The notes beneath the pieces are model-generated. The model was not told where the DNA came from, ran no database searches, and saw only the letters and a list, made by a program, of their open reading frames with translations. From Actinomycetota bacterium (GTDB lineage Bacteria > Actinomycetota > Actinomycetes > JACCUZ01), in contig JAVEDI010000003.1 of NCBI GenBank assembly GCA_030841035.1, positions 1 through 64,000 on the forward strand: 64,000 bases of DNA, read 5' to 3'. Shown one piece after another: positions 42,231-64,000 of this stretch. Position 1 is the first letter of the stretch. Every line of letters begins with the position of its first letter. The position numbers and the translations under genes were made by a program.

Positions 42231-43055
42231 TCACTTGGCGGCTGTGCCCACCGATCGCTGACCCTTGCGCTTGCCGCTCTTGCGGGGGGCCGGCGAGACC
42301 GCGCCGGCCGGGCGGGCCGGCCTTGCCGAGGCGCCGGCCGGGACCGGCTCGCTGTCCCCGCCCTCCGACGGCGAACCGCCGCCGGGCGAGGGCGAACCGT
42401 CGGGACGGGCGCCGCCGGCGGCCAGCTGCCCGCGACGTACGAGGGTCATCTCGAAGAAGACGACCGCCAGCAGGGCCAGCCCGGCCAGCACCAGCGCGAG
42501 TGTCGCGCGTGAGCGGGCCACGCCGTCGACCGTGACGGTGCCCGCGGCGCGTGGCTGGGCGGCCAGCGGCACGGGCGCGGCCGTCGGCGACGTACCGGTC
42601 AACGGCTCGGCGGTGACGGTCATCTGCGGCGAGAACGAGACCGGGGGCGCCACGTAGTCCTTGCGGCCGAGGGACCGCTGGGCGACCACCCAGACCGCGG
42701 ACCCGGGTGTCGAGGGCGCCGTGGCAGCAACCACGAACTCGCCGGTCTGGTTGGTCTGCAGGAGGCCACCGGTCCACCGCACCGCGGTGGGAGTGCCGTC
42801 GGTGCGCTTGAGGAGCTGGGACTTCCAGCCGGGGACCTCCTCGTGCGACTTCAGCGCGAACCCGGGCGGGAGCCGCAGCTCCACCCCGTTGGTCGGCAGG
42901 TCGTGCTCGTTCACGACGGCGACGGTCACCGTGACGGCGCTGCCCGTGACGACCTTCGAGGGCGCGACGGCGTCGTGAGCCCAGGCGGGCGTCGCCGCGC
43001 ACACAGCGAGCACGACGACCCCGAGAGTCGTCGCCAGCTTCCTGATGGTGCCCAC
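42231..43055 (-). CDS. YcnI-like copper-binding protein (DUF1775)
   Basis: Protein of 274 residues. The signal peptide ends AWA, leaving His as the first mature residue (HDAVAPSKVV); the Glu of VVNEHDLP and Trp of VPGWKSQ complete the His/Glu/Trp set with which Bacillus YcnI binds Cu(II) by a single-histidine brace. A membrane segment (ATLALVLAGLALLAVVFFEMTLV) and a long Pro/Ser/Gly- and then Lys/Arg-rich cytoplasmic tail follow. GTG at 43055 has an AGGAGG site. It lies 10 bp after copCD, the usual partner, and closes the operon of the 1160-residue protein, CopC-CopD and YcnI. Confidence 0.88.
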   Translation of the reverse strand: MGTIRKLATTLGVVVLAVCAATPAWAHDAVAPSKVVTGSAVTVTVAVVNEHDLPTNGVELRLPPGFALKSHEEVPGWKSQLLKRTDGTPTAVRWTGGLLQTNQTGEFVVAATAPSTPGSAVWVVAQRSLGRKDYVAPPVSFSPQMTVTAEPLTGTSPTAAPVPLAAQPRAAGTVTVDGVARSRATLALVLAGLALLAVVFFEMTLVRRGQLAAGGARPDGSPSPGGGSPSEGGDSEPVPAGASARPARPAGAVSPAPRKSGKRKGQRSVGTAAK

Positions 43056-44823: not shown

Positions 44824-44825
44824 GG

Positions 44826-47800
44826 TTACGACAGTCCCACGAATGCGTCCATGTCCACCCGGTTTCCGCCGGAAAGGGTGCCGTGCCGGAGCACCTGCAC
44901 GGTGACGGTGTGCCGGCCCCTGCTCAGCTGGCGGGTGAAGGCGAGGACGCCGTGGCGTGTCGTGTGCGACCACAGGTCGACCGTCGCGACCCGCCGGCCG
45001 TCCACCGAGATCGCGGCCCGGCCACGGTTCGGTCCGGTGGTGGTCACCCAGCCGAGCTCACCGCCGGTCACCGTCGTGCGGACCGTCGCGCCGGGCCGGG
45101 CCGACCAGTGCAGGCGGCCACCTTGGGCGCGGGAGTCGCTGCCGGCCCTCCAGTCCGATCCGTAGCGCGCGGCGCCGTCGCCCCGCAGCCAGAGACCCTG
45201 GCGGGGACCCACGAGGGCGCCGGTGTTGCCCGCCTGGTCGTCGGCCTCGACGCGCAGCTGGTAGGCGGCCGGTGCCAGGCGCAGCAGGAGCTCCTCGACG
45301 TTCGGGCCGGTGCGGGCGGCGAAGCGCCAGCTGGCGCCGCGGTCACGGCTGAGCAGCACGCGGCTGCCGGTGACCGGTCCCTCGGCGTCCGTGCCGTGCC
45401 AGGTGACCAGCAGCGGCACGCGGCCACGGAGCAGCGAGCGCCCTGCGGCGAGGGCGGTGACCGGACCGGTCACCGCCGGCAGGTCCGTGTCGACGACGAT
45501 CCTCAGGTCGGCGCCGGACGGGCCCGAGTTGCCCGCGACGTCGGTGGCCGAGGCGCTGACCCGGTGGGTGCCGGGGTTGACCGCGGTCGTCGCTCGCCAC
45601 GATCCATCGGCGCCTGCCTCCACCCGGGCGGAGAGCACGTCGTCGACGCGCACCGTCACCGCGGCGCCCGGCTCGGCGGAGCCGGTCACGGTGGGGAAGA
45701 GGACACCGGTGACACCGTCGGTGCTCGAGGCGCCGGTGTCGCTGGCCGGGTCGAGCGCGAGACCGCTGGGCGCGGCGGGGGCGGTGGTGTCGACCACGAT
45801 CCGGCGCGTCGGTGAGCTGGCGCTGGTGTTGCCGGCCAGGTCGGTCGCGGTGACCGACAGGTCGTGGTCGCCCTCGGGCAGGCTCGCCAGGGCGAGCGAG
45901 TACTGGCCGGTCGCGGTCGTGGTCACCGGGCGGACGCCCGGGTCGGTGCCGTCGACCGTGACCCGCACGGAGGTGGCCGGCTCCGCACTGCCGAGGACGG
46001 TGAGCGCGGTGCTGGCCGTGACGAGGTCGCTGACAGACCGGCCGGTGTCGCTGGCGGACGCGAGGGTCGGCGCCGGTGGCGCGGCGGGAGCGGTGGTGTC
46101 GACCGTGACAGTGAGCGGCGCGGTCTCGGGGGTACGCCGGCCGAACGCGTTGACCGCGACGGCGCTGATCAGGTGGCGACCGGGCGTCAGGGTGATCGGC
46201 AGGTCGTACGTGCCGACCGAGCCGACACGGCCCGAGGTGGCGTCGGCGCCGTCGGCGCGCAGCGTGACCGTCGTACCGGGCGCGCTGGTCCCCACGAGGT
46301 GCAGCGTGCTCAGGTTGGTCACGTTGTCCAGCGATGACGCGCCGCGGTCGTCGGCGGCGAGCAGGTCGGGCGCGGACGGTGCGGACGGCGACGCGCCGAT
46401 CGGCTTGGGTGTCTCGGCGCCGGCGGCCTGCCACAGCCGGCCACCGCCGGCGGGCAGCCCCGCGCTCGGGTCGTCGGCCACCAGCAGGTTGCCTGCGGGG
46501 TCCAGGCCGAGGCCGGACACCAGCCGCAGCGGGCTGGTGAGGCCGCCCGGAAACGTGCCGGTCGCGACGAACGGGCGTACCGCGCGTTCGCCCAGGTCGA
46601 TCTCGCGGACCATGGTCAGCACGTTGGGGGTGTCGGCGGCGTACAGCACGCCGGCGTTGTCGGAGACCAGGGCGCTCGGGCGGGTCACGCCGAAGTCCGT
46701 CGCGGCGGCGACGCAGGCGCCCCCGCAGCCGATCGCGGCGCGGATCACCGTGAGACCGGAGTCCTCGGCGAGGTAGAGGTCGGACTGCACGAAGGCCAGG
46801 GCATGCACGCCGCTCTGCGGATTCTGGCCGCGGCCCACCGGCTCCAGGACCTGGCTCTCGCCGTCGGGGTTGGTGAGGCGCACGACGTTCGGGCTGCCGA
46901 GCCCCGACACGTAGAGGTTGCCGTCGGGCCCGAGGGCCACCGCCTGCGGGGCGATCGCCGCGAGACCCTGCCCGGGTGCGAGGGCGGTCCGGTCGACGAC
47001 CGTGTTGGTCCGCTGGTCGAAGCGCAGCCGCACGACGCCGAGGCCGTTGGTCTGCGCATCCGGTACGTACACGAGGTTGGTCTGCGGGTCGTACGCCGGC
47101 TGGCCGGGCGTCACCGCGGCCGTGCTGCAGGTCTGCTGGTTGAGCGTGAAGCCGCCGAGCCCGTCGGTGTCCAGCCGGCAGAAGCCGTGCACGTGGTCGG
47201 AGACCCACAGGTTCGCGCCGAGCCGCACGGCGCCGGCGGGCGCGGTCAGGTCGCCGGTCACCAGCTCGGATGGATGCGGGGCGGCGACGTCCGCGGCGGT
47301 GGCGGGCTGGTCGACGGTGCCGGCCGTCTCGGGTGCGTCGTCGGCGCCGAGCGTCCAGATGCGGCCCCGGCCGGCCGGCAGCCCCGAACCGGTCGGGTCG
47401 TCGCCGAGCACGACCTGCCCGTCGTGCACGGTCAGCGCCCGGGCGAGCAGGAACGGCGCGGTCGCGCCCCCGGTGCTGGCCAGCAGGTCCTGCAGGCCGG
47501 TGCCCGGGTCGACCCGCAGGACGTAGGACCGGTCCAGGGGGGTGTCGGACACGAACAGCCGGCCGGACGCGTCCGCGGCGATGGCCTGGGGCGAGGTGGC
47601 CTTGATCTCGCTCTTGCGGGCCGTGCAGCCGGTGCAGGTCAGCGGCGAGGTGACCACCGTGACCCCGGACTGCTCGGCGAGGTAGAGGTCCCCACCGGCG
47701 AACGCCAGCCCCGCGACCGGGCCGCCGTCCAGGGTGTTCGCGGCGCCCTCGAGGCGCGGCGTCCCGAGGCGGTCCACGACGCGCAGCACCGCCCTGCCAC

Positions 47801-49455: not shown

Positions 49456-49985
49456 GGCGAGGCTCCCCGCAGCGAGGTCAGGACAGGGGCCAGCTGGTCG
49501 TAGGTGGCCGTGCCGATGACGCGGGCCACCACCCGGCCCCGCCGGTCGATGACCACCGTCTCGGGCACGCCGGTGACGCCGAGGGCCAGCGCGGCCCTGG
49601 CGCCCCGGTCGTCGGCCACCGGCCAGTCGCCGCCGGCGTCGCGCACGAACCGCGCGGCGCGCGCTCCGTCGTCCTGGAACGGGACGCCCACGAGCAGCAC
49701 GCCGCCGTCCCGGAACCGGCTCCACACCGCGGCGAGGTCGGCGTGCTCCTGGGCACACTCGGCGCACCAGGACGCGAAGAAGTTCAGCACGACGACCTGC
49801 CCGCCCGAGCGCAGCGGCAGCACGCCGCCGTCGCGCAGCGGCAACGTCTGGTCGGGTGCCGGGGCGGGCCGGGTGCGGGTCAGCGGCGCGGAGGCCTGTC
49901 CCTGGCTGAGCGCGGGCCCGAACAGCAGCACCGCCGACACGACGGCCACCAGCAGTGCGGCGAACCCGCCGCGGCGGCGGGTCAC
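49452..49985 (-). CDS. ccmG: Thiol:disulfide interchange protein (CcmG/DsbE-like)
   Basis: Extracytoplasmic thioredoxin-like protein of 177 residues with an N-terminal anchor (FAALLVAVVSAVLLFGPAL). The active site is FFASWCAECAQEH, and VTGVPETVVIDRRG carries the cis-Pro. It keeps the cysteines of the apocytochrome heme site reduced, with CcmH. GTG overlaps ccmF stop, and its stop overlaps ccmH. Confidence 0.93.
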   Translation of the reverse strand: MTRRRGGFAALLVAVVSAVLLFGPALSQGQASAPLTRTRPAPAPDQTLPLRDGGVLPLRSGGQVVVLNFFASWCAECAQEHADLAAVWSRFRDGGVLLVGVPFQDDGARAARFVRDAGGDWPVADDRGARAALALGVTGVPETVVIDRRGRVVARVIGTATYDQLAPVLTSLRGASP

Positions 49986-52033
49986 GGCGCACCGACCAGG
50001 TCGCCGGCTGCCTGGGCGGGTACGTCGTCGCCGGCCTGCCGGGGCGGCACCCCGTCGACGGCCCGTCGCCGTCGTCGGCCGGTCGCGGCCGGCACCCCGC
50101 ACAGGGCGCCACCGAGCAGCACGAGACCGCAGCCGATCCAGAGCCAGATGACTCCGACGTTGCGGTAGACCCGCAGCGTCGCACGCTGCCCGGACCCGGA
50201 GACGCCGAGCAGCGAGATGTAGAGGTCGGCCCGGGGTCCTACCCGGATCGACGGTCCGGCGACCAGCTCGGCGCCGGAGGGGTAGCGCCGCAGCGCCGGT
50301 GTCAGCGTGGTGGTGGTGGCGGCCCGACGGGCAGTCACCGTGGCGATGAGCTGGCTGCGCCGGGCGGTGGTCTGGGTGGTGACGTGGTCGAGGGTGATCG
50401 TGTACCCGGCGAAGCTCGCGTGGCCGCCGGTCGCGAGGTCCAGCTCGGTCTGGGTCGACCAGGTGCTCGAGGCCAGGATGGCGCCTGCCGCCAGCGCGAT
50501 GCCCGTGTGCGCGAGGGCCCCCCCGTAGCGCCGCGACGAGCGGGTGACCTCGCGGGCCGCCGCGCCCGGGCCCCGGCGGCGGCCGGCGCGCAGGGTGGGA
50601 CGGACGGCTTCCAGCAGCGCGGTCGCGCCCGCGAAGGTGGCCAGGCCCAGACCGGCGGCCGCCTCGGGCGAGTGCAGGCCGCCGACGGCCAGCGCGGCGA
50701 CGACCAGGGCTGCCAGCACCGCCGGGCCGGTCACCCGCTGGCGCAGGCGGGGCAGGTCGCGGGTCCGCCACGGCAGCAGCGGGCCGATGCCCATCAGGAA
50801 CAGCAGCAGCAGGAACAGCGGTCCGGTCGTCTGGTCGAAGTACGGCGCGCCGATGGCGGCCTTGCGGTCGGTCAGTGCCTCGGTCATCAGCGGATAGACC
50901 GTGCCGAGCAGCACGACGGCGGCCACCGAGAGCAGCACGAGGTTGTTGGCCAGCAACGCGCTCTCGCGGCTGCCGGGCACCGGCCGGGCGTCGCCCGGCA
51001 CGCTGCTGCGCAGGAGGAGCAGGCCGTAGCCGACGAGGGCGGCGACGATGAGGAACCCGAGGAACAGCGGGCCGGTCGCCGAGTCGGCGAAGCTGTGCAC
51101 CGACAGCAGCACGTTGCCGCGGGTGAGGAAGGTGCCGAACGTCGCGAGCAGGAACGCCGAGACGGCCAGCGCGAGGTTCCAGGTGCGCAGTACGCCGAGC
51201 CGGCCGACGCGCAGGGTGTGCAGCAACGCCGTCATCACCAGCCAGGGCAGCAGGGCCACGTTCTCGACCGGGTCCCACGCCCAGTAGCCGCCCCAGCCGA
51301 GGACGCCGTACGACCACAGCGAGCCCAGCGCCAGGCCGGCGGTCAGGAACCACCAGCACAGCAGCACCGGCCGGCGCGCCGCCCCGGCCCAGTCGTGGCC
51401 GGGCGCGAGCAGGCTGCCGAGCGCCAGCGCGAAGGGCACGGTGGTCGCGATGAGACCGATGTAGAGCGTCGGCGGGTGGACCGCCATCAGCGGGTGGTCG
51501 GCGAGCAGCGGCGGCAGCCCGCCGCCGTCGCGGACCGCCGGTCGCAGCGTGACGAACGAGCGCGCCGGCCCGACGACCAGCAGCAGGTAGAACGCGCTGA
51601 CGGCGTGCAGGGTGGCCAGCGCCACGGCCCCGGCCCGCGCGGTCGTGGCCTCGGGGACCGCGCCGGCGGCTGTGACCACCCGCCGCTGGCGCCACGCGAG
51701 GCCCGCCAGGAAACCGGCGAGCACCAGGTTCCACAGCAGCAGCGAACCGGTGTCGGCGGCCCACAGCGCGAGCACCTTGCCCAGCGACGGCGTGGCCCGG
51801 CTGGAGACCTCGGCGACGTAGCGCACCGAGAAGTCGTCGCGCAGCAGTGCGCTCACCATGGTGGCGACCGCGGCGAGCACCGCCAGGAGCACGGAGCCGG
51901 CCGCCGCCCGGCCGCTGGCCAGCAGGCTCGCGCGGCCGGTGCGGGCCGCGGCCACCGACACGAGCGCGCCGTACACCGCGAGGCCCAGCGCGAGCCACAG
52001 CGCGGCGTTGCCCACGAGCACGGAGCCGGTCAT
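49982..52033 (-). CDS. ccmF: Heme lyase subunit CcmF
   Basis: Integral membrane protein of 683 residues with about 15 segments. The WWD domain is GVLGWGGYWAWDPVENVALLPW, with conserved His in HPPTLYIG and FGTFLTRGNVLLSVHSF, typical of CcmF/NrfE. It attaches heme to apocytochrome c in System I with CcmH. ATG at 52033, 7 bp after ccmE. A basic C-terminal tail of about 40 residues (RRRRRAVDGVPPRQ) extends beyond the last helix. Confidence 0.95.
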   Translation of the reverse strand: MTGSVLVGNAALWLALGLAVYGALVSVAAARTGRASLLASGRAAAGSVLLAVLAAVATMVSALLRDDFSVRYVAEVSSRATPSLGKVLALWAADTGSLLLWNLVLAGFLAGLAWRQRRVVTAAGAVPEATTARAGAVALATLHAVSAFYLLLVVGPARSFVTLRPAVRDGGGLPPLLADHPLMAVHPPTLYIGLIATTVPFALALGSLLAPGHDWAGAARRPVLLCWWFLTAGLALGSLWSYGVLGWGGYWAWDPVENVALLPWLVMTALLHTLRVGRLGVLRTWNLALAVSAFLLATFGTFLTRGNVLLSVHSFADSATGPLFLGFLIVAALVGYGLLLLRSSVPGDARPVPGSRESALLANNLVLLSVAAVVLLGTVYPLMTEALTDRKAAIGAPYFDQTTGPLFLLLLFLMGIGPLLPWRTRDLPRLRQRVTGPAVLAALVVAALAVGGLHSPEAAAGLGLATFAGATALLEAVRPTLRAGRRRGPGAAAREVTRSSRRYGGALAHTGIALAAGAILASSTWSTQTELDLATGGHASFAGYTITLDHVTTQTTARRSQLIATVTARRAATTTTLTPALRRYPSGAELVAGPSIRVGPRADLYISLLGVSGSGQRATLRVYRNVGVIWLWIGCGLVLLGGALCGVPAATGRRRRRAVDGVPPRQAGDDVPAQAAGDLVGAP

Positions 52034-52040
52034 GGGGTGC

Positions 52041-52475
52041 TCACCGGGCCCGGGCCGCCCGCCGCGTCCCGACGGAGGGCGCCTCGGTCGGTGGTCGGTA
52101 GTCGCTGCCGTGCTTCACCAGCACGGTGTCGGCGCGGAAGACCGGATGCAGTGTGCGCCCGCCCGCCAGGTAGCCCTCGACCACGACGCCTTGCCCCGGG
52201 CCGAACATGGTGGGCAACCTCGCGTCGCCGACGACGGTCACGCGGCTCGTGCCGTCGCCGACGACGAAGCGCACCCCGTGGGCGCTCTTGACCACGGTGC
52301 CGGGTACGACCTGGCCGCCGAGCCGCAGCCGGTCGTGGGCGTTCGACGACCGGGCGGCCAGCACCTCGGTGGGCGTGGCGTAGTAGACGAGGTTCGAGCC
52401 CAGCCCGCGCACCAGCACCACGGCGAGCGTGACCAGCACGACGGCGAGGGTGGCGAGCACCCGCAGCTTGCTCAC
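52041..52475 (-). CDS. ccmE: Heme chaperone CcmE
   Basis: Protein of 144 residues with an N-terminal anchor (LATLAVVLVTLAVVLVRGLG) and an OB-fold domain. The heme-binding motif near the C-terminus is LVKHGSDYRPP, the His-x-x-x-Tyr form of proteobacteria rather than the Cys-x-x-x-Tyr form known from archaea and some Gram-positives. The His binds heme covalently and passes it to CcmF. GTG at 52475 overlaps the ccmD stop by 3 bp. Confidence 0.94.
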   Translation of the reverse strand: MSKLRVLATLAVVLVTLAVVLVRGLGSNLVYYATPTEVLAARSSNAHDRLRLGGQVVPGTVVKSAHGVRFVVGDGTSRVTVVGDARLPTMFGPGQGVVVEGYLAGGRTLHPVFRADTVLVKHGSDYRPPTEAPSVGTRRAARAR

Positions 52476-52636
52476 GGCGGCGGCACCGGCGGCGTACGTC
52501 GGCTGCGGCGCAGGGCCGCGAGCCGCGCGGCGGCGGCCCGGTCGGCCCGGGTGCGCCGGTGCAGTCGCAGCACCGCGGCCGCGAACGCCACCGCGGTCAG
52601 GGCGTATCCCGGGGCGACGTAGGACCAGTCACCCAT
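52472..52636 (-). CDS. ccmD: Small heme-exporter protein CcmD
   Basis: Protein of 54 residues, easily missed. It starts MGDWSYVAPGYALTAVAF with a single membrane helix (YVAPGYALTAVAFAAAVL) and continues LRLHRRTRADRAAAARLAAL with a basic tail ending PPVPPP. The Trp-Ser-Tyr-Val-x-x-(G/S)-Tyr pattern and following helix match CcmD, which releases holo-CcmE from CcmC. The ATG lies inside the ccmC end (8-bp overlap) and its TGA overlaps the ccmE GTG. Confidence 0.88.
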   Translation of the reverse strand: MGDWSYVAPGYALTAVAFAAAVLRLHRRTRADRAAAARLAALRRSRRTPPVPPP

Positions 52637-53495
52637 GGCTGCCTGCGCCCTGTGGCGTCGGGGCGGTGGCCACCAGGTCGGCGACCGGCGCCACGGGCTG
52701 CACGCCGCGTCGCACCGGTGCGCTGAGCAGCTCGCGACGGGTCCGCTGCGCTGCCCGCTCGGTGCGCATCCGGGCTGCGACGAGGTAGGCCCAGAGCAGC
52801 GTGAAGGCCAGCACCGCGAGCAGCAGGGCCGCGAGCATCGACCCGGCCATGGTGGGGGTGCCGGGTCGCAGCACGGTTGCGGGCTGGTGCAGACCGCGCC
52901 ACCACACGACCGACAGGTGCACGACGGGGACGTCGAGGAAGCCGACCAGGCCGACGACGGCCGACCACCGCGCGCCCCGGTCCGGGTTGTCGGGCAGGCC
53001 GCGCACCGCGAGGTAGCCGGCGTAGACCAGCAGCAGCACGAGGGTCGTCGTCAGCCGCGGGTCCCAGGTCCACCAGGCACCCCAGATCGGGCGGCCCCAC
53101 AGGGAGCCGAGCGCGATCGTGAGCCCGGTGAACAGCACGCCGGCCTCCGCCGCGGCGACGGCCAGCCGGTCCCAGTGCACGCGTCCCGTCCGCAGGTAGG
53201 CCGCGCTCGCGAAGGCCACGACAGCGAAGGACAGGTACGCCGTCCATGCCGCCGGCACGTGGACGTACATCAGCCGCTGCACGTCGCCCTGCGCGGCGTC
53301 GGCCGGCACGACGAGCAGCGAGACGACGGCGCTGGCGCCGAGGGCCACCGCCGCCGCGACGCCCTGCCAGAAGATGCCGCGCGACCCGCAGAGCGCGCCG
53401 AGGAGCCGGGCGCCACGGCTGCGGTTGCGGGCGCCCGACGGGCGCGCCGGGTGGGCGCGTGGCTGCGGCGCCGGGCGGCGGGCGATCGTCGCCAT
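52629..53495 (-). CDS. ccmC: Heme transporter CcmC
   Basis: Membrane protein of 288 residues with six segments. The WWD motif is WGAWWTWDPRLTTTL, flanked by conserved His in MYVHVPAAWTAYL and FLDVPVVHLSVVWW. It loads heme on CcmE. The N-terminus has an extra Pro/Arg-rich cytoplasmic stretch and the C-terminus a long charged tail, both longer than in E. coli CcmC. ATG at 53495, 2 bp after the ccmB stop. Confidence 0.95.
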   Translation of the reverse strand: MATIARRPAPQPRAHPARPSGARNRSRGARLLGALCGSRGIFWQGVAAAVALGASAVVSLLVVPADAAQGDVQRLMYVHVPAAWTAYLSFAVVAFASAAYLRTGRVHWDRLAVAAAEAGVLFTGLTIALGSLWGRPIWGAWWTWDPRLTTTLVLLLVYAGYLAVRGLPDNPDRGARWSAVVGLVGFLDVPVVHLSVVWWRGLHQPATVLRPGTPTMAGSMLAALLLAVLAFTLLWAYLVAARMRTERAAQRTRRELLSAPVRRGVQPVAPVADLVATAPTPQGAGSHG

Positions 53496-53497
53496 CG

Positions 53498-54160
53498 TCA
53501 GTCCTCCACCAGGTAGCCGTAGAGCAGGGTGCCGGCGGCGAGGGCCACGACGTCGAAGGACAGCAACAGCCCGAGCCACCCGGTGACGTCGCGACCCTCG
53601 AGCGCCAGCGACGTGGCCCGGACGGCGTCGACCAGCAGGGGGATCGCGGCGGGCAGCACGAGCAGCGGCAGGACACCCTCGCGGGTGCGGGCCGCCTGGG
53701 CCACCACGCCGAACAGCGAGCCGATGGCGGCCAGGCCCACCGTGGCGAGCAGGCAGACGAGGGCCAGCGCCACAGGGGCGGCGGCGAGCGGCAGCCCGAA
53801 CAGCAGCGCCATGACCGTCACCAGCACCACCTCGAGGGCGAGCAGCTGGACGCTGAGAGCGGCGGCCTTCCCGAGGAAGATCGCGGCTGGGTCGGCGGGG
53901 GACAGCAGCAGGCCCTCGAGCGCGCCGTCCTCCCCCTCCAGCTCGTAGCTGCGCCGGGTCGCGAGGACAGCGGCGAACAGCACCGTGATCCACAGCAGGC
54001 CCGGCGCCACCTGCCGCAGCAGGGGCCGGTCGGGCCCGAGCGCGAGGCCGAGGGCGACGAGCAGGGTGACCGCGAAGGGCAGCACGGTGCTCACGGCGTG
54101 CCGGCCGCGCAGCTCCAGCCGCAGGTCCTTGGCCGCGAGCGCCAGAGCCTCGCCGGTCAT
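53498..54160 (-). CDS. ccmB: ABC transporter permease CcmB
   Basis: Protein of 220 residues with six membrane segments, ending TLLYGYLVED. The string LAAKDLRLELRGRHAVSTVLPF at the N-terminus and LLVLPAAIPLLVDA are typical CcmB. With CcmA it forms the ABC module that releases heme-loaded CcmE from CcmC. ATG overlaps the ccmA stop by 4 bp. Confidence 0.95.
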   Translation of the reverse strand: MTGEALALAAKDLRLELRGRHAVSTVLPFAVTLLVALGLALGPDRPLLRQVAPGLLWITVLFAAVLATRRSYELEGEDGALEGLLLSPADPAAIFLGKAAALSVQLLALEVVLVTVMALLFGLPLAAAPVALALVCLLATVGLAAIGSLFGVVAQAARTREGVLPLLVLPAAIPLLVDAVRATSLALEGRDVTGWLGLLLSFDVVALAAGTLLYGYLVED

Positions 54161-54897
54161 GTCAGTCCGCCGGGCGCCGCGCTGAGCAGGGACGGTTGCG
54201 GGACGACGACGGTCTCCCCGGCCGCCAGGGTGACGGTGCGGTCGGCCGCGAAACCCACCAGGTCGTCGTGGCTGGCGAGCACCGCCGCTCCGCCGCGACG
54301 GATGGTCGCGGCGACGAGGGCGTGAACAAGACTGCCTGCCTGGTCGTCGAGACCGGCATAGGGCTCGTCGAGCAGCAGCAGGGACGGTGCACGCACCAGG
54401 GTGCGGGCCATCGCCAGTCGCTGCCGCATGCCCTGCGAGAAGCCGCGGGTCCGTTCGTCGGCCACCTCCAGCAACCCGACCTGCTCGAGCACCGCGGGCA
54501 CGAGCGCGGGATCGGCGTGGTGCATGCGAGCGACGAAGCGCAGGTTCTCGGCGGCGCTGAGGTCGCCGTACAACCGGGTCTGGTGACCGACCAGCTCGGT
54601 GAGCCGGCGTACGTCGCGTCGATCCGTCACCAGGTCGTGACCGAACACGCAGCCCCGCCCGTGGGTCGGGGTCACCGCGGTCGCCAGCACCCGCAGCAGC
54701 GTGGACTTGCCGGAGCCGTTCGTGCCGCGCAGCAGCACGACCTCACCGGGTCGGACCACCAGCCGCACCCGCACCAGTGCCGGCTGCTGGCCGAAGACCC
54801 TGGTGACCCCGTCGAGACAGGCTGCGTGCGCGTCGATGCGACACGTCGGGTGCGTCCTACGGCGCACCACGTGCCGGAACCCCCCAGCCCCGCCCAT
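54157..54897 (-). CDS. ccmA: ABC transporter ATPase CcmA
   Basis: ATPase of about 246 residues. Walker A is LRGTNGSGKSTLLRVL, the signature is RGFSQGMRQRLAMARTL, and Walker B is LLLLDEPYAGLD, followed by the switch His in VLASHDD. First gene of a nine-gene operon (ccmA to the TPR gene). The ATG at 54897 lies six bases after TAGTCT without a ribosome site, so the mRNA may be leaderless. Confidence 0.94.
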   Translation of the reverse strand: MGGAGGFRHVVRRRTHPTCRIDAHAACLDGVTRVFGQQPALVRVRLVVRPGEVVLLRGTNGSGKSTLLRVLATAVTPTHGRGCVFGHDLVTDRRDVRRLTELVGHQTRLYGDLSAAENLRFVARMHHADPALVPAVLEQVGLLEVADERTRGFSQGMRQRLAMARTLVRAPSLLLLDEPYAGLDDQAGSLVHALVAATIRRGGAAVLASHDDLVGFAADRTVTLAAGETVVVPQPSLLSAAPGGLT

Positions 54898-54974: not shown

Positions 54975-57900
54975 CTAGCCGCCGAGCAGCACCACCGCAT
55001 CGACGTCGAGGCGCCGTCCGAGGGAGTGGCGGTTGCGGGTGCCGAGGACCACCAGACGCACCGTTCGGGTGCCCGGCGGTGCCTGCCAGACGACCTGGCG
55101 GACGCCCGCCCGGGCCCGGTAGAGGTCGAGGGTCACCGCGCTGCGGCTGGCACCGTTGACGATGACCTTGACCATGCCCTTGTCCCGTCCGGTGCCGAGC
55201 AGCAGCCCGGCCCGGGAGCCGCTGGGCACGGTGAGCATCGCGCTCGACCCACGGGAGGAGCTCTCCCTCGCCTTGCCCGCGGAGTACGCCGACCCGGCCA
55301 CCGTGCGCCACTTCCCGGCGTAGGCGAGTGAGGCACTGGACTCCTGCCGGAGACTCACCGACGTCGCGACGCCGCTCACCTGAGGTGTCACGTTGCCGAC
55401 CCCGTCGGTCGCCGTCACCACGAACGTGTAGCGATGGTTGGCGGCCAGTGCGGTCGTCAGCTGGGTCGTGGTCGGCGAGGCCAGAGCCACCGGCACCGGT
55501 CGGCCGCCGTCGGTGCGCAGCCAGAGCTGGTACCTGCTGACACCGGAGGTGTCGCTGGCGCCCCAGCGCACCTCGACCGGGACGTTGCCGCGGGCGCTGA
55601 CGCTGCCCTTGCCGAGGACGATGGTGGGCGAGCTGACCCGTGGCGGGTTGACGTCCTGGGTGCCGGCTGTGCCGGACTCTCCCGTACCGGAGCCGGTCGT
55701 GCCACCGGCCGCGATCGTGTAGACCTCCTGGCCCTCGCTCGAGACGTTGCCTGCCGGGTCGATGGCCACGAAGCGCAGCATGCTCGTCCGGTCGACGGTC
55801 ACCGGGCCGGTGTACGTCGGCGAGCTCATGCCGGGGACGGTGCCGTCGAGGGTGTAGCGGATCTGGCCCGGCTCCGTGGAGTTCAGCGTGACCTGCTGCG
55901 CCGCGGCGTACAGCCCGCCCGGAGGCGTGGCCGACGTCCGTGGTGCGACCCGGTCGACGGTGAAGCGCACCTGCTGGGTGGCACCCGACCAACCGGCTCG
56001 GCTGGTCGCCCGCACCTGGAGGGTCCAGGTGCCGTCGGCCAGGCCCTTGGCGGAGAACGGGGACTTGCAGGGGGCGAAGGCGGCCGGGCCCGTCGACAGC
56101 GAGCACTCGAAGCGGGCGTCGGGGTCCGAGGAGGTGAACGGGATCTTCAGGGTGTTCTGGTTCGTCGGGTCGGACGGCGGCGCCGGGAAGTCCACCGTGG
56201 GCGACGCGGAGCTCGAGTCCAGACACAGCGGCTGGCCGTTGTTGGGCGGCGGGCAGGTGACGGGCTTGGGCAGCACCCGCTGCAGGCCCCACATGCCGGC
56301 CTGCGTGAACGGCCGGCGCAGGTCGCCGTAGAAGTAGTCACCCGGCGTGTGGGACGTCGAGCCCGCGCCACCGAGGACGTGCATCGTTGCCGACTCCCAC
56401 GGACCGACCGCGCGGGTCTGGGTCAGGTTTGCCGCCTTGATGCCCTCGTCGACCGCGAAGTTCAGCCCGCCCAGGTTGAAGGCGTGCGTCTGCTCGCTGC
56501 CGGGCGCGCCGAAGGCGTGCACGACCATCGGGTCGCCGGCGTAGGCCCGCAGCAGCGGTGTCGCCGGGTCGCCGAACGCGGCGCTGCTGAACGCGTTGCC
56601 GAGACTGTCGTTGCGTGGCGCGTTCTTGTAGTTGATCAGGACCGCGTTCGGCTTCTCCGCACCGACCGGGTAGGGCATGAAGCTCGCCCCGAGCTGCGGG
56701 TCGTCGTCGGACAGGATCAGGCTGAAGTCGCGGTAGTCCTTGTGCCCTGGCACGTGGACGTCCACGGCCGCGCCGACGCCGGTCTCGTTGCCGGTCACCG
56801 GGTCGGTGAACGTCGAGCCCTTGGGCGCCACGGTGTAGCCGCCGTAGAGGCCGCGCTTCGCGGAGCCCGCTCCGGCACCAGGCGTGTTGCCGGAGAGGTC
56901 ACCGATGGTGCCGCCGCCCACCCTGTCGTTGTCGACGCTGTAGACGTAGGTCCGGCTCGCGCCGTCGGCGATCGTCGACTCGGGGTTGTAGCCGATGTTG
57001 ACACCGGCCGACGCACGGTCGCTGTCCAGGCCGCGCAGCATGAAACCGATGTGGCCGATGCCCGTCTTGTTGGTCACCTTGACCGTCACGCAGTCGCCTG
57101 CGGTCATGTGCATGACGAGGGGCTCACCGGGCGTGGTGCTGTTCGCGGCGGCAGCGGCCTTGCTCGTCGGCACGTAGGTGTAGCGGGTTGCGGTGTTCGT
57201 GTTGCTGGTGCGCACCGCGGTGATGTCGAAGCTGCGCTGCGCCGACCCGGCCTCGCAGGGGTTGCCGGGGCTGTCCGGCTCCGGTGGTGTCGTGCCGGAC
57301 GGTGGGAAGGCGGCACTGGAGGTGCCTGGATCGGTGCCGGGCAGCGGCTTGAGGTAGTTCGGGTCGTTCTCGTCGGTGGTCACCCGTCCGGGGAGCACCC
57401 GGATGATGCCCCACGCACCGTCGGCGAGCCGCCGGTCGACGCCGTTGAAGTACAGGTAGTCGCCACTCGCCTTGCGAGGTCCACCCGCACCGCCCTGCAG
57501 GATCAGGGTGAAGCGTTCGGAGATGCCGTAGTGCAGGGTGTCGAGCGGTTCGGCCTCGGCCTTGCCGCCGGCGCCGACGTACCTGTTCTCGTAGAAGAAC
57601 CGGTGCCCGTCGATGCCGAGCGTGTCGACGGCGGATCCCACCTGGATGGTGCGGATCACCAAGGGGTCGCCGGGATACGCACGCGGCAATGGCGTGATCG
57701 GATCACCGTGCGCGTAGGAGCTGAACTGCAGCGACGGATCGGTGAGCAGGTTGCGGTCGCTCAGCGGGTCCGCGCGCAGGTTGAACATGGAGTCCTGGGT
57801 CGCCCCGAAGCCCTTGTCCATCTCCCACAGCGCGACCTCACGGAAGCTGCCGGTCACCCCGGCGCCGGCCGCAAGCGGCTTGTTCGCGTGGATGTCGACG

Positions 57901-60900
57901 ATCGCGCCGGAGTCGACCTGGTTGCCGGTGCGGGGATCGTGATAGGTGGAGCCTTCCGGCTCCACGATCAGCTGGCCGACCAGGCCGTGCGCCCACGTGT
58001 GGATGCCGTCGACGTGGTCGTGCCAGAAGATGTTGTCGAGGTTGACGTCGGGGTACCAGCGGTACTGCTCGAACTCCACACCGGCGTACTGGCCGGCGGC
58101 GTGGTCGATCTCCAGCGGGGCTGCGAGCGTCACCGTGTTGGCTGTCTTGTCGATCGAGGTGATCGCCCGGATCTCCGGGCCCCTGCCTGAGGTCGCCGCG
58201 TTCGCGGTGCCCGTCGCCTCCGGCCCCTCGGTGCCGAGACCGACGCCGATGTACACGCCGACCTGGAACTTGGCCACGCTGGCCAGGTGCAGCACGGTGT
58301 CGCCCTTGGCCGCGGGCTGGGTGAGCTGTGGGTCCTCGAGCTTGTAGGGGCGCACCGCCTGCTCGTAGGACATGCCGGTGATGACGCCGTCGGAGGCTTG
58401 CGTGTCGAACTGCACGTGGTGGATGTGCATGTTGACCTGCGAGAAGTGACTGGGCGAGTTGATGTCGGTGAGCTCGCTGGTCAGGGTGACGGCAACGCAG
58501 TCGCCCACGTTGGCGCGCAGGGCCAGCGGCGCGAACGGCTTGGTGCCGTCCATCACGGCCGCCTTGTCATGGGCGAGGACGTACACCTGTCCGGTCGGGT
58601 CGCTGTCCTTGGGCGTGACCTGGACGGACTTCTCCACGGCGACGACGTTGAACCGTCGCAGCGGGGTCGGTGCACCGCTGGCCGTCGTCGACGGACAGAT
58701 GCCGTCGGCCCGCTTGGCCCACGTGTCGACCTTCGGACCGGACTTCACGGCCTGGTCGCCGTTCTCCCCCAGGTACGGCGCACCGGAGTGCCCGTTGGGA
58801 GAGAACGGTGGGCGCATGCCCAGATGCGGTCGCATCATCGGGTACGCCGGCCGGCCGTTGGTCGGGTCGAACAGGAGCACCGGACGGTTGCCGACGAACG
58901 TGTCGCCGGGCATCGCCGTCGGGTGGCCGGGCACCTTGTTCTCGTAGTCGGGCCAGTTGGAGTTGTCCTCGGGCTCGCCGAGGTACTGCAGGGGGTTGTC
59001 GGCGTTCACCGACCAGTTCCAGACGGTGGCGTCGTTGTTCTCCAGGCGCACGCCGGCCGGCGGGAGCTGCGGGCGGATCCAGTCGGCGAGGTTGTCCTCG
59101 GTGATCTTCTGACCGCCGTACGTGTGGCCGATCAGGGCCTGCGAGTCCACCGGCTCGGGCGGGGCGACCCGGTCGGCCAGCGGGGCGAAGTCGGGTTGGC
59201 GGGTGTTGTAGACGCGCCAGAAGCTCCACATGCCGGCGACGTAGTGCTCGGCGATGTGGCAGTGGAACAGGAAGTCGCCGGCGCCCTGCTGGACGCCGCC
59301 GGCGCCGCCCTCGATCTCGAGGTTGTAGGACTCGCCGGGACCGAAGGCCTGCGAGTCCAGGCGCGAGGAGTCGCTGGCCTCGACGGGGTGCTTGTTGAGG
59401 CCGGTGTCCTCGTAGTTGTACGTCGGGTCGGCCACCGGGTTGAAGCGCCACCGGATGCCACCGCCGTGCATGTGGAAGACGTGGAACATCTCGGTGCCGG
59501 CGTGCAGGATGCGGAACTTGGTCGGGTCGGCCTGGTAACCACGCGGCATCGGTGTCGCCGGGTCGCCGAAGGTGTAGGACCCGTAGCCGTGCGCCTCCTG
59601 CTCGGGGGCCGCGTCGAGGCGGTTCATGAAGGCCTCGGAGCGGTAGTTGATGGCGCGGGTGTTGGGCCGGTAGGCGTCGCTGTGCGGGTCGATGAACGCG
59701 ACCGGGGTGCCGTCCTTCTTCAGGACGGCGTCCTTCTCGTCCTCGTTGCCGATCTCGTGGTACAGCTGCACGTTCTCGCGGAACTCCGCGCGGCCGGCGG
59801 GCCGGATGATGGCTTCCCAGCCGGACTCGATGGCCTTGGCGTGGTCCTCGTCGACGGCGTTGGGGTCGAGGTACGTCGAGCCGGGGGGCTCGACGACCAG
59901 CGCGCCGAACAGGCCGTGGTTGACGACGTTGCGGAAGCCGGGGCCCGGGTGCAGGTAGTGCGCGCCCTCGAGCGAGTCGTCGTTGGGCACGTAGTAGGTG
60001 TAGGTGCGCGATTCACCGGTCTTCGGGTTGCTCGCCGGGTTGCGCCCGATGGCGTCGCCGGACTGGGCGATCGCGTAGCTCAGGCCGTCGATGTGCAGGC
60101 CGAACTCGCCGCCCTCGGCCTTGTTGGTGTAGTTGATGGTGACGCAGTCGCCCTGGTTGGCGCGGATGACCAGCGGCTGGATGGCGTCGTTGCGCAGCCC
60201 GATCGAGACCTTCTGCGACTTCGCCTCGGCGGCCACGTCGTCGACCCGGTTGCTGAGCACGTACATCCGGCCCTTAGCGTCGTGGTCGCCGAAGCGGTTG
60301 AGCGGGATGTCGACGTTCATCGACTCGACGTCGTAGGTCTTCTGCGGCACGTTGGCCGGGCACGGGCCGTCGGCCCCGGCGGCGTCCGCGGGGGTCGCGG
60401 ACATCAGCGGCGATGTGGTCAGCGTGCCGAGCCCGATGACGGCCGCGAGCGCGGGGACGAGGGCGCGACGCAGGTGGGCTTTCCTCAGCGTGGGCAGTCG
60501 GCCGCTCGTCACGACGACGATGCGCAGGGCCAGCGCGCCGAGCAGGACGAAGGGCAGCGAGCGGAGGGCCAGCAGCGCCGAGGCTGCAGCACCACGGCCG
60601 CCGGCCGCGGGGGACATGAGCAAGCTCTGCGCGGCCGCCGAGACGGCCAGCGACCCGACGGCGATCGCGGCCACTGCGGCGTACTCCGCGGCGACGGCCA
60701 ACGGGTCGTCGCGCAGGCTACGCCGGAGCGCCGAGGTGAGGCCGCCGGCCACGCTGCCCAGCAGGACGGCGATCGGCAGGGCGAGGACCGCGGCCTCGAG
60801 CCACGACCCCTGGCCTGTGAGGCCGTTGCCCGGGGCGCTGCGCAGGGCGGCCACGAGGGCCGTCAGGCCGACGAGGGGCAGCAGGGTGGCGGTGGCCCGG

Positions 60901-60947
60901 GTCGGCGATCCGAGGATGCCGCGGCGGCGGCGGGAGTGTGCTGACAT
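54975..60947 (-). CDS. Giant membrane-anchored multicopper oxidase, six cupredoxin-like domains
   Basis: Protein of 1990 residues. Five membrane helices (about 15-185) precede three tandem units, each of two cupredoxin-like domains (about 190-610, 750-1170, 1190-1600). Domain 2 carries FHVFHMHGG (about 489) and FLFHCHIAEHYVAGMW (about 559-571), a complete type 1 site with axial Met and half of the trinuclear site. Domain 3 carries NMHIHHVQF (about 840) and IFWHDHVDGIHTWAHG (about 973), the other half. Domain 1 retains only remnants (GLHIDG, HYLHPG) and domains 4-6 lack ligands. A beta module (about 870-945) is inserted in domain 3. After about 1620 come Ig-like domains and the shared C-terminal domain ending LDVDAVVLL. 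ATG at 60947 is chosen because GGAG lies six bases upstream. The substrate is unknown; metal oxidation, as in MnxG/MofA-type giant oxidases, is possible. Confidence 0.9.
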   Translation of the reverse strand: MSAHSRRRRGILGSPTRATATLLPLVGLTALVAALRSAPGNGLTGQGSWLEAAVLALPIAVLLGSVAGGLTSALRRSLRDDPLAVAAEYAAVAAIAVGSLAVSAAAQSLLMSPAAGGRGAAASALLALRSLPFVLLGALALRIVVVTSGRLPTLRKAHLRRALVPALAAVIGLGTLTTSPLMSATPADAAGADGPCPANVPQKTYDVESMNVDIPLNRFGDHDAKGRMYVLSNRVDDVAAEAKSQKVSIGLRNDAIQPLVIRANQGDCVTINYTNKAEGGEFGLHIDGLSYAIAQSGDAIGRNPASNPKTGESRTYTYYVPNDDSLEGAHYLHPGPGFRNVVNHGLFGALVVEPPGSTYLDPNAVDEDHAKAIESGWEAIIRPAGRAEFRENVQLYHEIGNEDEKDAVLKKDGTPVAFIDPHSDAYRPNTRAINYRSEAFMNRLDAAPEQEAHGYGSYTFGDPATPMPRGYQADPTKFRILHAGTEMFHVFHMHGGGIRWRFNPVADPTYNYEDTGLNKHPVEASDSSRLDSQAFGPGESYNLEIEGGAGGVQQGAGDFLFHCHIAEHYVAGMWSFWRVYNTRQPDFAPLADRVAPPEPVDSQALIGHTYGGQKITEDNLADWIRPQLPPAGVRLENNDATVWNWSVNADNPLQYLGEPEDNSNWPDYENKVPGHPTAMPGDTFVGNRPVLLFDPTNGRPAYPMMRPHLGMRPPFSPNGHSGAPYLGENGDQAVKSGPKVDTWAKRADGICPSTTASGAPTPLRRFNVVAVEKSVQVTPKDSDPTGQVYVLAHDKAAVMDGTKPFAPLALRANVGDCVAVTLTSELTDINSPSHFSQVNMHIHHVQFDTQASDGVITGMSYEQAVRPYKLEDPQLTQPAAKGDTVLHLASVAKFQVGVYIGVGLGTEGPEATGTANAATSGRGPEIRAITSIDKTANTVTLAAPLEIDHAAGQYAGVEFEQYRWYPDVNLDNIFWHDHVDGIHTWAHGLVGQLIVEPEGSTYHDPRTGNQVDSGAIVDIHANKPLAAGAGVTGSFREVALWEMDKGFGATQDSMFNLRADPLSDRNLLTDPSLQFSSYAHGDPITPLPRAYPGDPLVIRTIQVGSAVDTLGIDGHRFFYENRYVGAGGKAEAEPLDTLHYGISERFTLILQGGAGGPRKASGDYLYFNGVDRRLADGAWGIIRVLPGRVTTDENDPNYLKPLPGTDPGTSSAAFPPSGTTPPEPDSPGNPCEAGSAQRSFDITAVRTSNTNTATRYTYVPTSKAAAAANSTTPGEPLVMHMTAGDCVTVKVTNKTGIGHIGFMLRGLDSDRASAGVNIGYNPESTIADGASRTYVYSVDNDRVGGGTIGDLSGNTPGAGAGSAKRGLYGGYTVAPKGSTFTDPVTGNETGVGAAVDVHVPGHKDYRDFSLILSDDDPQLGASFMPYPVGAEKPNAVLINYKNAPRNDSLGNAFSSAAFGDPATPLLRAYAGDPMVVHAFGAPGSEQTHAFNLGGLNFAVDEGIKAANLTQTRAVGPWESATMHVLGGAGSTSHTPGDYFYGDLRRPFTQAGMWGLQRVLPKPVTCPPPNNGQPLCLDSSSASPTVDFPAPPSDPTNQNTLKIPFTSSDPDARFECSLSTGPAAFAPCKSPFSAKGLADGTWTLQVRATSRAGWSGATQQVRFTVDRVAPRTSATPPGGLYAAAQQVTLNSTEPGQIRYTLDGTVPGMSSPTYTGPVTVDRTSMLRFVAIDPAGNVSSEGQEVYTIAAGGTTGSGTGESGTAGTQDVNPPRVSSPTIVLGKGSVSARGNVPVEVRWGASDTSGVSRYQLWLRTDGGRPVPVALASPTTTQLTTALAANHRYTFVVTATDGVGNVTPQVSGVATSVSLRQESSASLAYAGKWRTVAGSAYSAGKARESSSRGSSAMLTVPSGSRAGLLLGTGRDKGMVKVIVNGASRSAVTLDLYRARAGVRQVVWQAPPGTRTVRLVVLGTRNRHSLGRRLDVDAVVLLGG

Positions 60948-60961
60948 GACCATCTCCGGGC

Positions 60962-61594
60962 TCAGTGGCTGTGCTCGGGCGAGACGGCCGTGGCCTGTCG
61001 CGTGCCGAGATCGATGACGATGGGGTCGCGGCGGCCTGGATCCTTGAACAGGAGCGTCAGGTGCACCTTCTGCCGCGGGATGGTGAAGTCGAGGTGTCCC
61101 TCGATCCCGGCGTTGGGCAGGATCCGCATGTCGGGCAGGTCACCGGCTTGCGGCTTCTGCGCGGTGGTCTTGCCCGCCCGCGTCACCAGCAGGGTGAACC
61201 GGTTCGCCGACTGCTGGATCGGGTGTGCGCTGCGGTTGGTGACCGCGACCGCGACCTGGATCTGCGAGTGCGACGAGTCGACGAGGCCGGACACGCCGTG
61301 GCTGGCGCCGGCCAGCGCGCGATTGGTGACGCCGTCGACGCTGCGCACGAACTCCACAGCCACCACACCGAAGCTCGCGTGGACGTTCTCCCCGATCTGG
61401 TGTGCGCCGTCGCGCGAACCGCCCAGCATCCCCAGGTCGTGCAGCCCGACGGCGAGCCCGCCCAGCACGACACTCAGCAGCACGACGAGCGCGGCGCCGC
61501 GAGCACGGCCCTCGCCCTGGCTGGATTCGTCGATGCGGCCCGTCTGCCGGTCCTGGCTGCGACCGATGTCGGCCGACCTGAGCACAAGCGCCAT
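60962..61594 (-). CDS. Membrane-anchored partner protein of the oxidase
   Basis: Protein of 210 residues: a polar cytoplasmic N-terminus (GRSQDRQTGRIDESSQGEG), one membrane helix (AALVVLLSVVLGGLAVGL) and an extracytoplasmic beta domain (VAVEFVRSVDGVTN, IQVAVAVTNRSAHPI, HLDFTIPRQKVHLTLLF) resembling DUF4352-like Ig folds, ending in SPEHSH with several His (possible metal ligands). ATG at 61594 follows GGGGTGGGGGG. It is 14 bp upstream of the oxidase and in the same operon, so an accessory or copper-delivery role is inferred. Confidence 0.75.
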   Translation of the reverse strand: MALVLRSADIGRSQDRQTGRIDESSQGEGRARGAALVVLLSVVLGGLAVGLHDLGMLGGSRDGAHQIGENVHASFGVVAVEFVRSVDGVTNRALAGASHGVSGLVDSSHSQIQVAVAVTNRSAHPIQQSANRFTLLVTRAGKTTAQKPQAGDLPDMRILPNAGIEGHLDFTIPRQKVHLTLLFKDPGRRDPIVIDLGTRQATAVSPEHSH

Positions 61595-61893: not shown

Positions 61894-62538
61894 CTATTCC
61901 GGTGGCGGGACCAGCCCGAGCTGGATGGCCTTGACGACGGCCGAGGTGCGGTCGGAGACCTGCAGCGCCTGGTAGATCTGGGTGAGGTGCGCCTTGACGG
62001 TCGCCTCAGAGATCGAGAGCTCGGTCCCGATCGCCTGGTTGGAGAGTCCTTCGGCCAGTCGACGCAGCACGTCGTGCTCGCGGGCGGTCAGGGTGACCTC
62101 GGGGTTGCGGGCCGCGCGGGCGCGCACGAGGGCCGTGGACGCGGCCAGCGACAGCGGCGCGTCACCACGATGCGCCGCGCGCACGGCGTCCACGATCTCC
62201 TCCGGTTTGGCGTCCTTGACGAGGTACCCGCATGCTCCGGCGTCCAGCATGGCGAGGACCCTGGCCTGGTCGTCGAACGACGTGAGCGCGAGCACCCGGG
62301 TGCGCGGGGCCGCGGCAAGCACCGCGCGGGTCGCGGCCAGGCCGTCCATGCCCGGCATGGACAGGTCCATCAGTACGACGTCCGGCTCGTCGTCGGGGTC
62401 GGCGGGCGTCACCTTGGCGACGGCCGCCCGGCCGTCACCGGCCTCGCCGACGACCCGGAAGTCCGGCACCGACGTCAGCAGGTGGACGAGACCGGCTCGA
62501 ACCAGGGCGTGGTCGTCAACGACCAGGAGGCGGATCAC
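61894..62538 (-). CDS. NarL/LuxR-type response regulator
   Basis: Protein of 214 residues. Receiver domain with phospho-acceptor Asp in VVLMDLSMPGMDG (about residue 58) and Lys in GYLVKDAKPEE; C-terminal LuxR helix-turn-helix LTAREHDVLRRLAEG-LSNQAIGTELSISEATVKAHL. The ATG overlaps the kinase stop by 4 bp. It lies 300 bp upstream of the oxidase operon on the same strand, making that operon a likely target. Confidence 0.93.
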   Translation of the reverse strand: MIRLLVVDDHALVRAGLVHLLTSVPDFRVVGEAGDGRAAVAKVTPADPDDEPDVVLMDLSMPGMDGLAATRAVLAAAPRTRVLALTSFDDQARVLAMLDAGACGYLVKDAKPEEIVDAVRAAHRGDAPLSLAASTALVRARAARNPEVTLTAREHDVLRRLAEGLSNQAIGTELSISEATVKAHLTQIYQALQVSDRTSAVVKAIQLGLVPPPE

Positions 62539-63896
62539 CGGCTGGGCAGCACGAAACGGAACCGCGTCCCACCGCCAGGTGCCGGTGTGACCTCCAGGCG
62601 TCCGCCCACCTCGGCGGTCAGGTCCTCCAGCAGCCGCAACCCGAAGTGCGCGCGGTCGGGGTCGGGTGGCGCGGCGTCCGGCCCGACGCCGTTGTCCGTC
62701 ACGACCACGCCGACCATCCGCGGGCCGGTGATGAGCTCCACGTGCACGGTGGTGCCGCCGGAGTGGGTGACGGCGTTGCGCACGGCCTCCTGGGCCGCGC
62801 GGTAGAGCGCCGCCGTCACCTCCGGTGCGACGGGCGGGTCGGCAGGGATGTCCATGCTGGTCTGGAACCCGCGCTTCTCCGCGGTCGCGAGCAGCTCGGT
62901 GATGGAGGCTCTCAGTCCGAGCGCTTCCAGGGACGGCGGGTAGATGTCGGTGATCAGGCTGCGGAGGTCGGAGACGCCGGCCCGCGTGATGGCTGCCGCG
63001 TCGGCGATCTGTCCGGCGGTCTGCGGCTGGCCGGCGGCACGCACCCGGTCGGCGGTTCCGGCCAGGGTGAAGGAGACCCCGACCAGTGACTGGACGAGAC
63101 CGTCGTGCAGGTCGCGAGCGATGCGGCGCCGTTCATGGTCGGAGGCCTCGATCGCACGGCGCTGGAGGACCTCCTTCTCCCGCTGGCCCAGCTGCACCCG
63201 GCGTACCAGTCGCAGGGCCAACGGCAGCTGCAGGACCTGCAAGGCCAACAGCGCGACCATGAAGGCCGGGACGATGGACCACACCAGCTTGCCGCTCCCG
63301 GCGAGCACCGAGTCCATCCGCAGGTAGCTCTCGAACAGCAGGTGCTGCCCCGTCGGCGTCGTCACCCGGGTGTAGACCTGCATCAGCTGGCCGTACTGCT
63401 GCTCCAGCTCGTTCTCGGCGGCGTCGAGATTGGACAGCTCGGCGCTGGGGTGGCCCGAGCGCAGCACGGCACGCTCGTTCGTGCCCAGGGCGTAGGTGCG
63501 ACCGATGAGGCGGTGGGCGTCGGAGTAGACGATGCGGCCGCCCGGGGTCCAGAGCTTCACGCGCACCACCCGACGGTGCACGACGATGCTGCGCATGTCG
63601 CGGTCGAAGCGGGCGACAGCCTGGGGGTCGCCGCTCGCGAGCTTGTCGGTGATGCGCGGCTCGACCACGTAGCGGGTCGCTGCGATCGTGAGTTCCCGCG
63701 CCTGGGCCTCCGACTGCTCGACGGAGACGCGGCGCAAGGCAATGAGCCCGGTGCTGCCCAGCAGCAGCAGGACGACGACGCCCACGAGCGCGAACTGGGT
63801 CAGCGCCCGACCGGCGGAAAGCTGGCCGGGCGCGGCGGCCGACGGATCGACCGCGCTGCTCGTGCCAGAGCTCGACACGGGTGTGTCGACCGCCAT
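62535..63896 (-). CDS. NarL-family sensor histidine kinase (HisKA_3)
   Basis: Membrane kinase of 453 residues. Membrane helices at about 35-55 (FALVGVVVLLLLGSTGLIAL) and 210-235 enclose a sensor domain of about 160 residues containing WTPGGRIVYSDAHRLIGRTY, a single-Cache-like region. The phospho-acceptor His is in RRRIARDLHDGLVQSLVG, and the HATPase has EAVRNAVTHSGG and DNGVGPDAAP with HFGLRLLEDLTAEVGG. ATG at 63896 (MAVDTP) has an AGGAC site; ATG at 63920 lacks one. The remaining 104 bp to the window end show no gene. Confidence 0.92.
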   Translation of the reverse strand: MAVDTPVSSSGTSSAVDPSAAAPGQLSAGRALTQFALVGVVVLLLLGSTGLIALRRVSVEQSEAQARELTIAATRYVVEPRITDKLASGDPQAVARFDRDMRSIVVHRRVVRVKLWTPGGRIVYSDAHRLIGRTYALGTNERAVLRSGHPSAELSNLDAAENELEQQYGQLMQVYTRVTTPTGQHLLFESYLRMDSVLAGSGKLVWSIVPAFMVALLALQVLQLPLALRLVRRVQLGQREKEVLQRRAIEASDHERRRIARDLHDGLVQSLVGVSFTLAGTADRVRAAGQPQTAGQIADAAAITRAGVSDLRSLITDIYPPSLEALGLRASITELLATAEKRGFQTSMDIPADPPVAPEVTAALYRAAQEAVRNAVTHSGGTTVHVELITGPRMVGVVVTDNGVGPDAAPPDPDRAHFGLRLLEDLTAEVGGRLEVTPAPGGGTRFRFVLPSR

Positions 63897-64000
63897 CGTC
63901 CTGTCCCCACTGTCTGGCATGCGGCTGGCGCGCGGAGTCCGAGAGACGCCGCGCGCCACACCTGTTCCTCCCAGAAGAATGGACTAGCTAGCGCTCGCCG

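Follow-up and report, generated by a model that had tools for sequence, protein, structure and literature searches.

The oxidase and its locus

The principal gene of the locus, on the reverse strand of a 64-kb stretch of DNA that was analysed as a whole (the window), encodes a multicopper oxidase with six cupredoxin-type domains, which run from residue ~205 to residue ~1565 (Table 1). The reading frame opens with an ATG at 60953; position 60947, where an earlier note on this DNA had begun the gene, is the second in-frame ATG. Stretches of MnxG align along residues 208-1562, as six tandem cupredoxin domains, the repeats fall into three two-domain units that align with one another, and Pfam recognises both Cu-oxidase_3 (E=1.6e-14) and Cu-oxidase_2 (E=7.7e-6). 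The oxidase domains are preceded by five hydrophobic segments and an AxA-like sequence. The loops predicted to lie inside the cell carry positive charge, which suggests that the enzyme is anchored in the membrane and faces outward; it might be released at the AxA-like sequence that follows the last segment. The earlier note had presented this five-helix anchor as a novelty: the five segments are there, but the region is not peculiar to this protein, since it is found in most actinobacterial and Chloroflexota relatives and in both paralogues from the same genome. The C-terminal Ig-like tail that it described is likewise present, with a CHB_HEX_C_1/Ig-like domain at residues 1677-1738 (Pfam, E=6.5e-19), and stretches resembling the tail occur elsewhere in the window. 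The window also encodes three very large proteins that look secreted and carry Ig-like, fn3, NHL or Vgb-lyase domains (32390-36511, 38185-42153 and 44829-48308, all on the reverse strand); stretches of some of them resemble the oxidase tail, perhaps as a shared surface module.

Table 1. Features of the oxidase locus and related features elsewhere in the same genome (G000)
Feature	Position	Strand	Basis or remark
HisKA_3 sensor kinase	62535..63959	-	Pfam; conserved with the response regulator
LuxR-type response regulator	61894..62538	-	Pfam; beside the oxidase also in loci L085, L104, L009 and L017
P0002: one membrane helix, DUF4352-like beta-sandwich, C-terminal His tail (EHSH, HxH)	60962..61594	-	Profile, hydropathy, fold search
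Six-cupredoxin-domain multicopper oxidase, 1992 aa (stop included)	54975..60953	-	ORF, Pfam, PDB, Foldseek
N-terminal membrane region, residues 19-183, five hydrophobic segments	60405..60899	-	Hydropathy
HVFHMH, residues 491-496, domain 2: H491 type 1; H494, H496 trinuclear	59466..59483	-	Invariant 86/86
HCHIAEHYVAGM, residues 564-575, domain 2: C565, H570, M575 type 1; H564, H566 trinuclear	59229..59264	-	86-row alignment
HIH, residues 843-845, domain 3 trinuclear ligands	58419..58427	-	Invariant 86/86
HDH, residues 978-980, domain 3 trinuclear ligands	58014..58022	-	Invariant 86/86
C-terminal Ig-like / CHB_HEX_C_1 / fn3-like tail, residues 1582-1992	54978..56210	-	Pfam
CcmA, B, C, E, F (system I cytochrome c maturation), between oxidase and CopC/D	49982..54897	-	Profile matches
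CopC-CopD fusion, copper binding and transport	43066..44973	-	Pfam; directly after the oxidase in L104 and L085
YcnI-type DUF1775 copper-handling protein	42231..43055	-	Pfam; after CopC/D in L104 and L085
Further P0002 family members, this genome	G000:C44:77838-78416; G000:C8:44014-44475
MnxG-like paralogue, HCHLYPHFADGFW, Phe for axial Met	L010:6816-12374 (G000:C8)	-	9bxa, E=5.6e-211

A single predicted copper site in domains 2 and 3

The copper motifs lie where the earlier note had placed them when checked against the protein sequence: HVFHMH and HCHIAEH (residues 564-570, with the axial Met at 575) come first, in domain 2, and HIH and HDH follow in domain 3, 278 and 413 residues past C565, in keeping with its estimate of about 275-415. 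Each half-site is present once, as claimed. The one type 1 site belongs to domain 2, and the trinuclear ligands are divided between domains 2 and 3, both in this protein and in an alignment of 86 sequences drawn from several phyla, all of which share the same motif order. All 11 His and Cys ligands are invariant in these 86 sequences, and the axial Met is kept in 85 of them. For HCH this is in part a product of the search, since FHCH was written into one of its two patterns; the other eight His were in neither. Together with the Pfam and MnxG matches, the invariance shows that the motifs did not arise by chance. In the alignment of the three two-domain units, domains 1, 4, 5 and 6 have lost ligands and retain no full set at the equivalent positions, which bears out their description as decayed copies, and no equivalent Cys occurs in domains 4 and 6.

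MnxG was also the right comparison. In a PDB sequence search with the oxidase, MnxG (9bxa) was the only strong match (E=4.1e-94), followed by two-domain laccases. A structure model of residues 196-1212, which covers domains 1-4 and was built on 44 sequences, has a pLDDT of 88.4 and a pTM of 0.90; Foldseek again places 9bxa at the top (E=1.2e-59), followed by ceruloplasmin, clotting factors V and VIII, and two-domain laccases. Because 9bxa aligns to both halves of the site and all of the ligands are invariant, one active site at the interface of domains 2 and 3 is the best reading of the sequence.

The two-domain laccases (SLAC type, e.g. 3cg8) found as fold matches to this model provide a simple account of the motif order. 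In these homotrimers a copper site is formed where domain 2 of a unit meets domain 1 of its neighbour, and there are three such sites, whereas the oxidase described here is a single chain with one site left. On a simple reading, the chain derives from a fused trimer of such units, which would offer three possible interfaces (D2-D3, D4-D5 and D6-D1), and of these only D2-D3 survives. Ceruloplasmin, another fold match with six cupredoxin domains and one trinuclear site in one chain, keeps the D6-D1 interface instead. The half-sites look "swapped" or not according to which of the three two-domain units in the ring is counted first.

Two departures from this picture can be weighed here, and we consider both highly improbable. 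The earlier note held the swapped arrangement to be new, and a genuine rearrangement relative to related oxidases might be suspected from a motif order that resembles neither three-domain laccases nor ceruloplasmin, in which the trinuclear site lies between domains 1 and 6 and type 1 sites lie in domains 2, 4 and 6 (PMC3600357). At the same time, for every bacterial six-domain oxidase in their analysis, Vasin et al. (2013; PMC3600357) assigned the trinuclear ligands to domains 2 and 3 and the mononuclear type 1 copper to domain 2, and the trinuclear site of green-algal ferroxidases is likewise located in domains 2/3. On this ground, and on the one order shared by all 86 sequences, we reject a novel swap; the swapped half-sites are real, but bacterial six-domain oxidases normally have them, as already published, and tying them to that architecture disposes of a false novelty. 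Since four of the six domains have lost ligands, an oxidase could alternatively have given rise to a structural protein without activity, but the complete site that remains is strictly conserved in the 86 sequences, and on this conservation we reject a pseudoenzyme.

Relationship to MnxG

Like the oxidase, MnxG of Bacillus sp. PL-12 has six cupredoxin domains, with HxxHxH and HCH in domain 2 and the HxH pairs in domain 3, at 22% identity in the fold alignment. In the entry 9bxa, titled as an Mnx H340A complex, residue 340 is Ala and aligns with H570, so that the type 1 His 340 of MnxG corresponds to H570 here. Nonetheless, the oxidase, which is much longer than MnxG (~1217-1227 aa), is a relative of MnxG and not MnxG proper. 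It scores 112 bits against the NCBIfam MnxG equivalog model NF041487, for which the cut-off is 3100; the paralogue on contig C8 (414 bits) and a Priestia plasmid protein (333 bits) also fall below it. In a tree of 44 rows (quick method, midpoint root, without MofA or Pseudomonas McoA among the rows), the oxidase belongs to a clade of 38 that stands apart from the MnxG-type clade of Priestia, C8, Microvirga and Pseudonocardia. On the score and the separate clade we reject filing the protein as MnxG.

The larger clade spans Actinomycetota, Chloroflexota, Acidobacteriota, Nitrospirota (Nitrospira moscoviensis and Ca. Manganitrophus among them) and a number of Proteobacteria. The multicopper oxidases of Ca. 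Manganitrophaceae and Nitrospira have all of the ligands and ~35% identity to the oxidase; they differ from it in lacking the five-helix region and in having no detected P0002 neighbour. In Ca. Manganitrophus sp. GAC4 the relatives lie at L063, which carries two, and at L069, and their copper ligands are complete. The Ca. Manganitrophaceae have been described as having two multicopper oxidases per genome, which were called novel (PMC9040806), and from the organism we infer that the proteins at L063 and L069 are the ones meant. In this second, little-studied clade of six-domain oxidases, from Ca. Manganitrophus and Nitrospira to Chloroflexota and Actinomycetota, a complete D2/D3 copper site is kept. 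The two paralogues in the oxidase's own genome, one on contig C44 (1653 aa, 49% identity) and one on C8 (1853 aa, 31% identity), have the same D2/D3 ligand layout.

A conserved gene module

What this analysis adds to the known architecture is a gene module, and the co-occurrence of one of its members, P0002, with six-domain oxidases. The order sensor kinase, response regulator, P0002, oxidase, CopC/CopD and YcnI is found at a locus from the same genus (L104) and at one from Frankiales (L085), and it recurs in the window with an insertion: ~10 kb containing CcmABCEF and an NHL/Ig-like protein separates the oxidase from CopC/D. A Streptomyces plasmid (L099) has a protein with a helix and a His tail, which the P0002 profile does not match, then the oxidase, then CopC. 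Because CcmF is absent from all five of the other genomes tested, one of the same genus (G001) included, the Ccm stretch seems to have been inserted in this genome alone, and the Ccm genes in the oxidase cluster were probably acquired; they do not belong to the conserved module. Given the same absence, and the position of CopC/D directly after the oxidase in L104 and L085, cytochrome c maturation is not supported as a functional partner of the oxidase. Downstream of CopC/D and YcnI, a cytochrome c with two CxxCH motifs, CCP/MauG-like in Pfam, is encoded at 36681-37697 on the reverse strand.

P0002, a putative accessory protein

The less expected part of the locus is P0002, a small membrane protein with a His tail; of 395 genomes of the class, only those with a six-domain oxidase have it. 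Its gene lies directly upstream of the oxidase gene, and 8 bases separate its stop codon from the ATG of the oxidase; comparison with locus L011 led us to set its own start at the ATG at 61594. Relatives adjoin the oxidase, mostly directly upstream, in ~20 actinobacterial and Chloroflexota loci, and none were found in the Nitrospirota oxidase loci. The family profile matches six of the 395 genomes, exactly the six that are matched by the MnxG model, and in each the two lie on the same contig. Since the profile was built from proteins beside oxidases, the test is whether the family occurs elsewhere, and among the 395 genomes it does not. If the two distributions were independent, the chance of such agreement would be ~1 in 5e12 (1/C(395,6)), a figure that weakens under shared ancestry, as between G000 and G001, which belong to one genus.

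Pfam PF11611 (DUF4352) matches P0002 weakly, at 21-22 bits against a gathering threshold of 25.9, and 13 of 16 relatives match it at E<=0.1; the fold neighbours are YcdA and YjhA. Of 23 relatives, 18 end in a stretch of 15 residues with at least two His, compared with 12% of other ORFs, a crude background. MnxG acts with MnxE and MnxF (PMC5622069), and no small MnxE/F-like ORF was recognised by eye beside the oxidase. We also considered P0002 itself as a relative of MnxE/MnxF and rejected the idea, as the family profile has no PDB match to the Mnx chains and finds YcdA and YjhA as its best hits. Among the papers in the library searched, none joins DUF4352 with a multicopper oxidase, and none describes an Mnx cryo-EM structure or the H340A variant.

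Judged from its sequence, P0002 may be an accessory copper subunit that loads copper or forms a complex. We tentatively extend this, by analogy and at a little less than even odds, to a dedicated partner family of the six-domain oxidases of Actinomycetota and Chloroflexota, whose His tail would load copper into the oxidase or bind it in a complex, and which would take the place that MnxE/MnxF have in Bacillus by way of an unrelated sequence. MnxG has been described as the only characterised multicopper oxidase that requires accessory proteins for overexpression (PMC5622069), and a missing P0002 could therefore decide whether oxidases of this kind can be expressed and assayed. The linked gene is a concrete, testable candidate for such a factor.

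Proposed mechanism and substrate

Overall, we favour, with a probability of roughly 0.88, a model wherein the protein is a membrane-anchored, outward-facing six-domain oxidase of the MnxG superfamily, made of three fused two-domain laccase units, with D2/D3 as the one copper site that was kept, with copper probably supplied by CopC/CopD and YcnI, and with P0002 as a probable accessory protein. Copper bound at the type 1 site of domain 2 (H491, C565, H570, M575) would accept electrons from the substrate, which we infer to be a metal open to oxidation, for example Mn(II). The electrons would then cross the H564-C565-H566 bridge and reach the trinuclear cluster, whose ligands are H494, H496, H564 and H566 in domain 2 and H843, H845, H978 and H980 in domain 3, and there O2 would be reduced to water. 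The CopC/CopD and YcnI neighbours probably supply the copper, and the two-component pair of sensor kinase and response regulator probably controls expression.

From kinship, Mn(II) or another metal is a plausible substrate. We know of no Mn(II) oxidation in Nitrospira moscoviensis or Nitrosomonas, which have members of the clade, and the substrate of the oxidase may therefore differ from Mn(II). A strict Mn(II) oxidase, which would convert extracellular Mn(II) to Mn(III/IV) as Bacillus Mnx does, is a narrower version of the model above and compatible with it; we place it somewhat below even odds. It gains from the nearest solved relative being MnxG and from the clade members in Ca. Manganitrophus, and it loses from the separation of the clade from MnxG and from the lack of recognised MnxE/MnxF-like neighbours. 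For Mn lithotrophy, moreover, Cyc2 and PCC_1 have been preferred over the multicopper oxidases of the Ca. Manganitrophaceae, which would need to transfer electrons to a carrier (PMC9040806).

An enzyme that oxidises copper or phenols (a cuprous oxidase or a laccase-like enzyme), and that serves copper handling or matrix oxidation in place of manganese, is less likely than not, but only slightly less so than a strict Mn(II) oxidase. CopC/CopD and YcnI are its conserved neighbours, and two-domain laccases are the next fold matches after the six-domain proteins; copper supply genes would be expected beside any copper enzyme, however, and the six-domain enzymes of known function, to our knowledge MnxG and ceruloplasmin, oxidise metals. 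Returning to the membrane-anchored metal oxidase that we favour, a strict role in Mn(II) oxidation is made less probable by the closer MnxG relative in the same genome: the paralogue on contig C8 (Table 1) appears from its sequence to be the better candidate for Mn(II) oxidation there.
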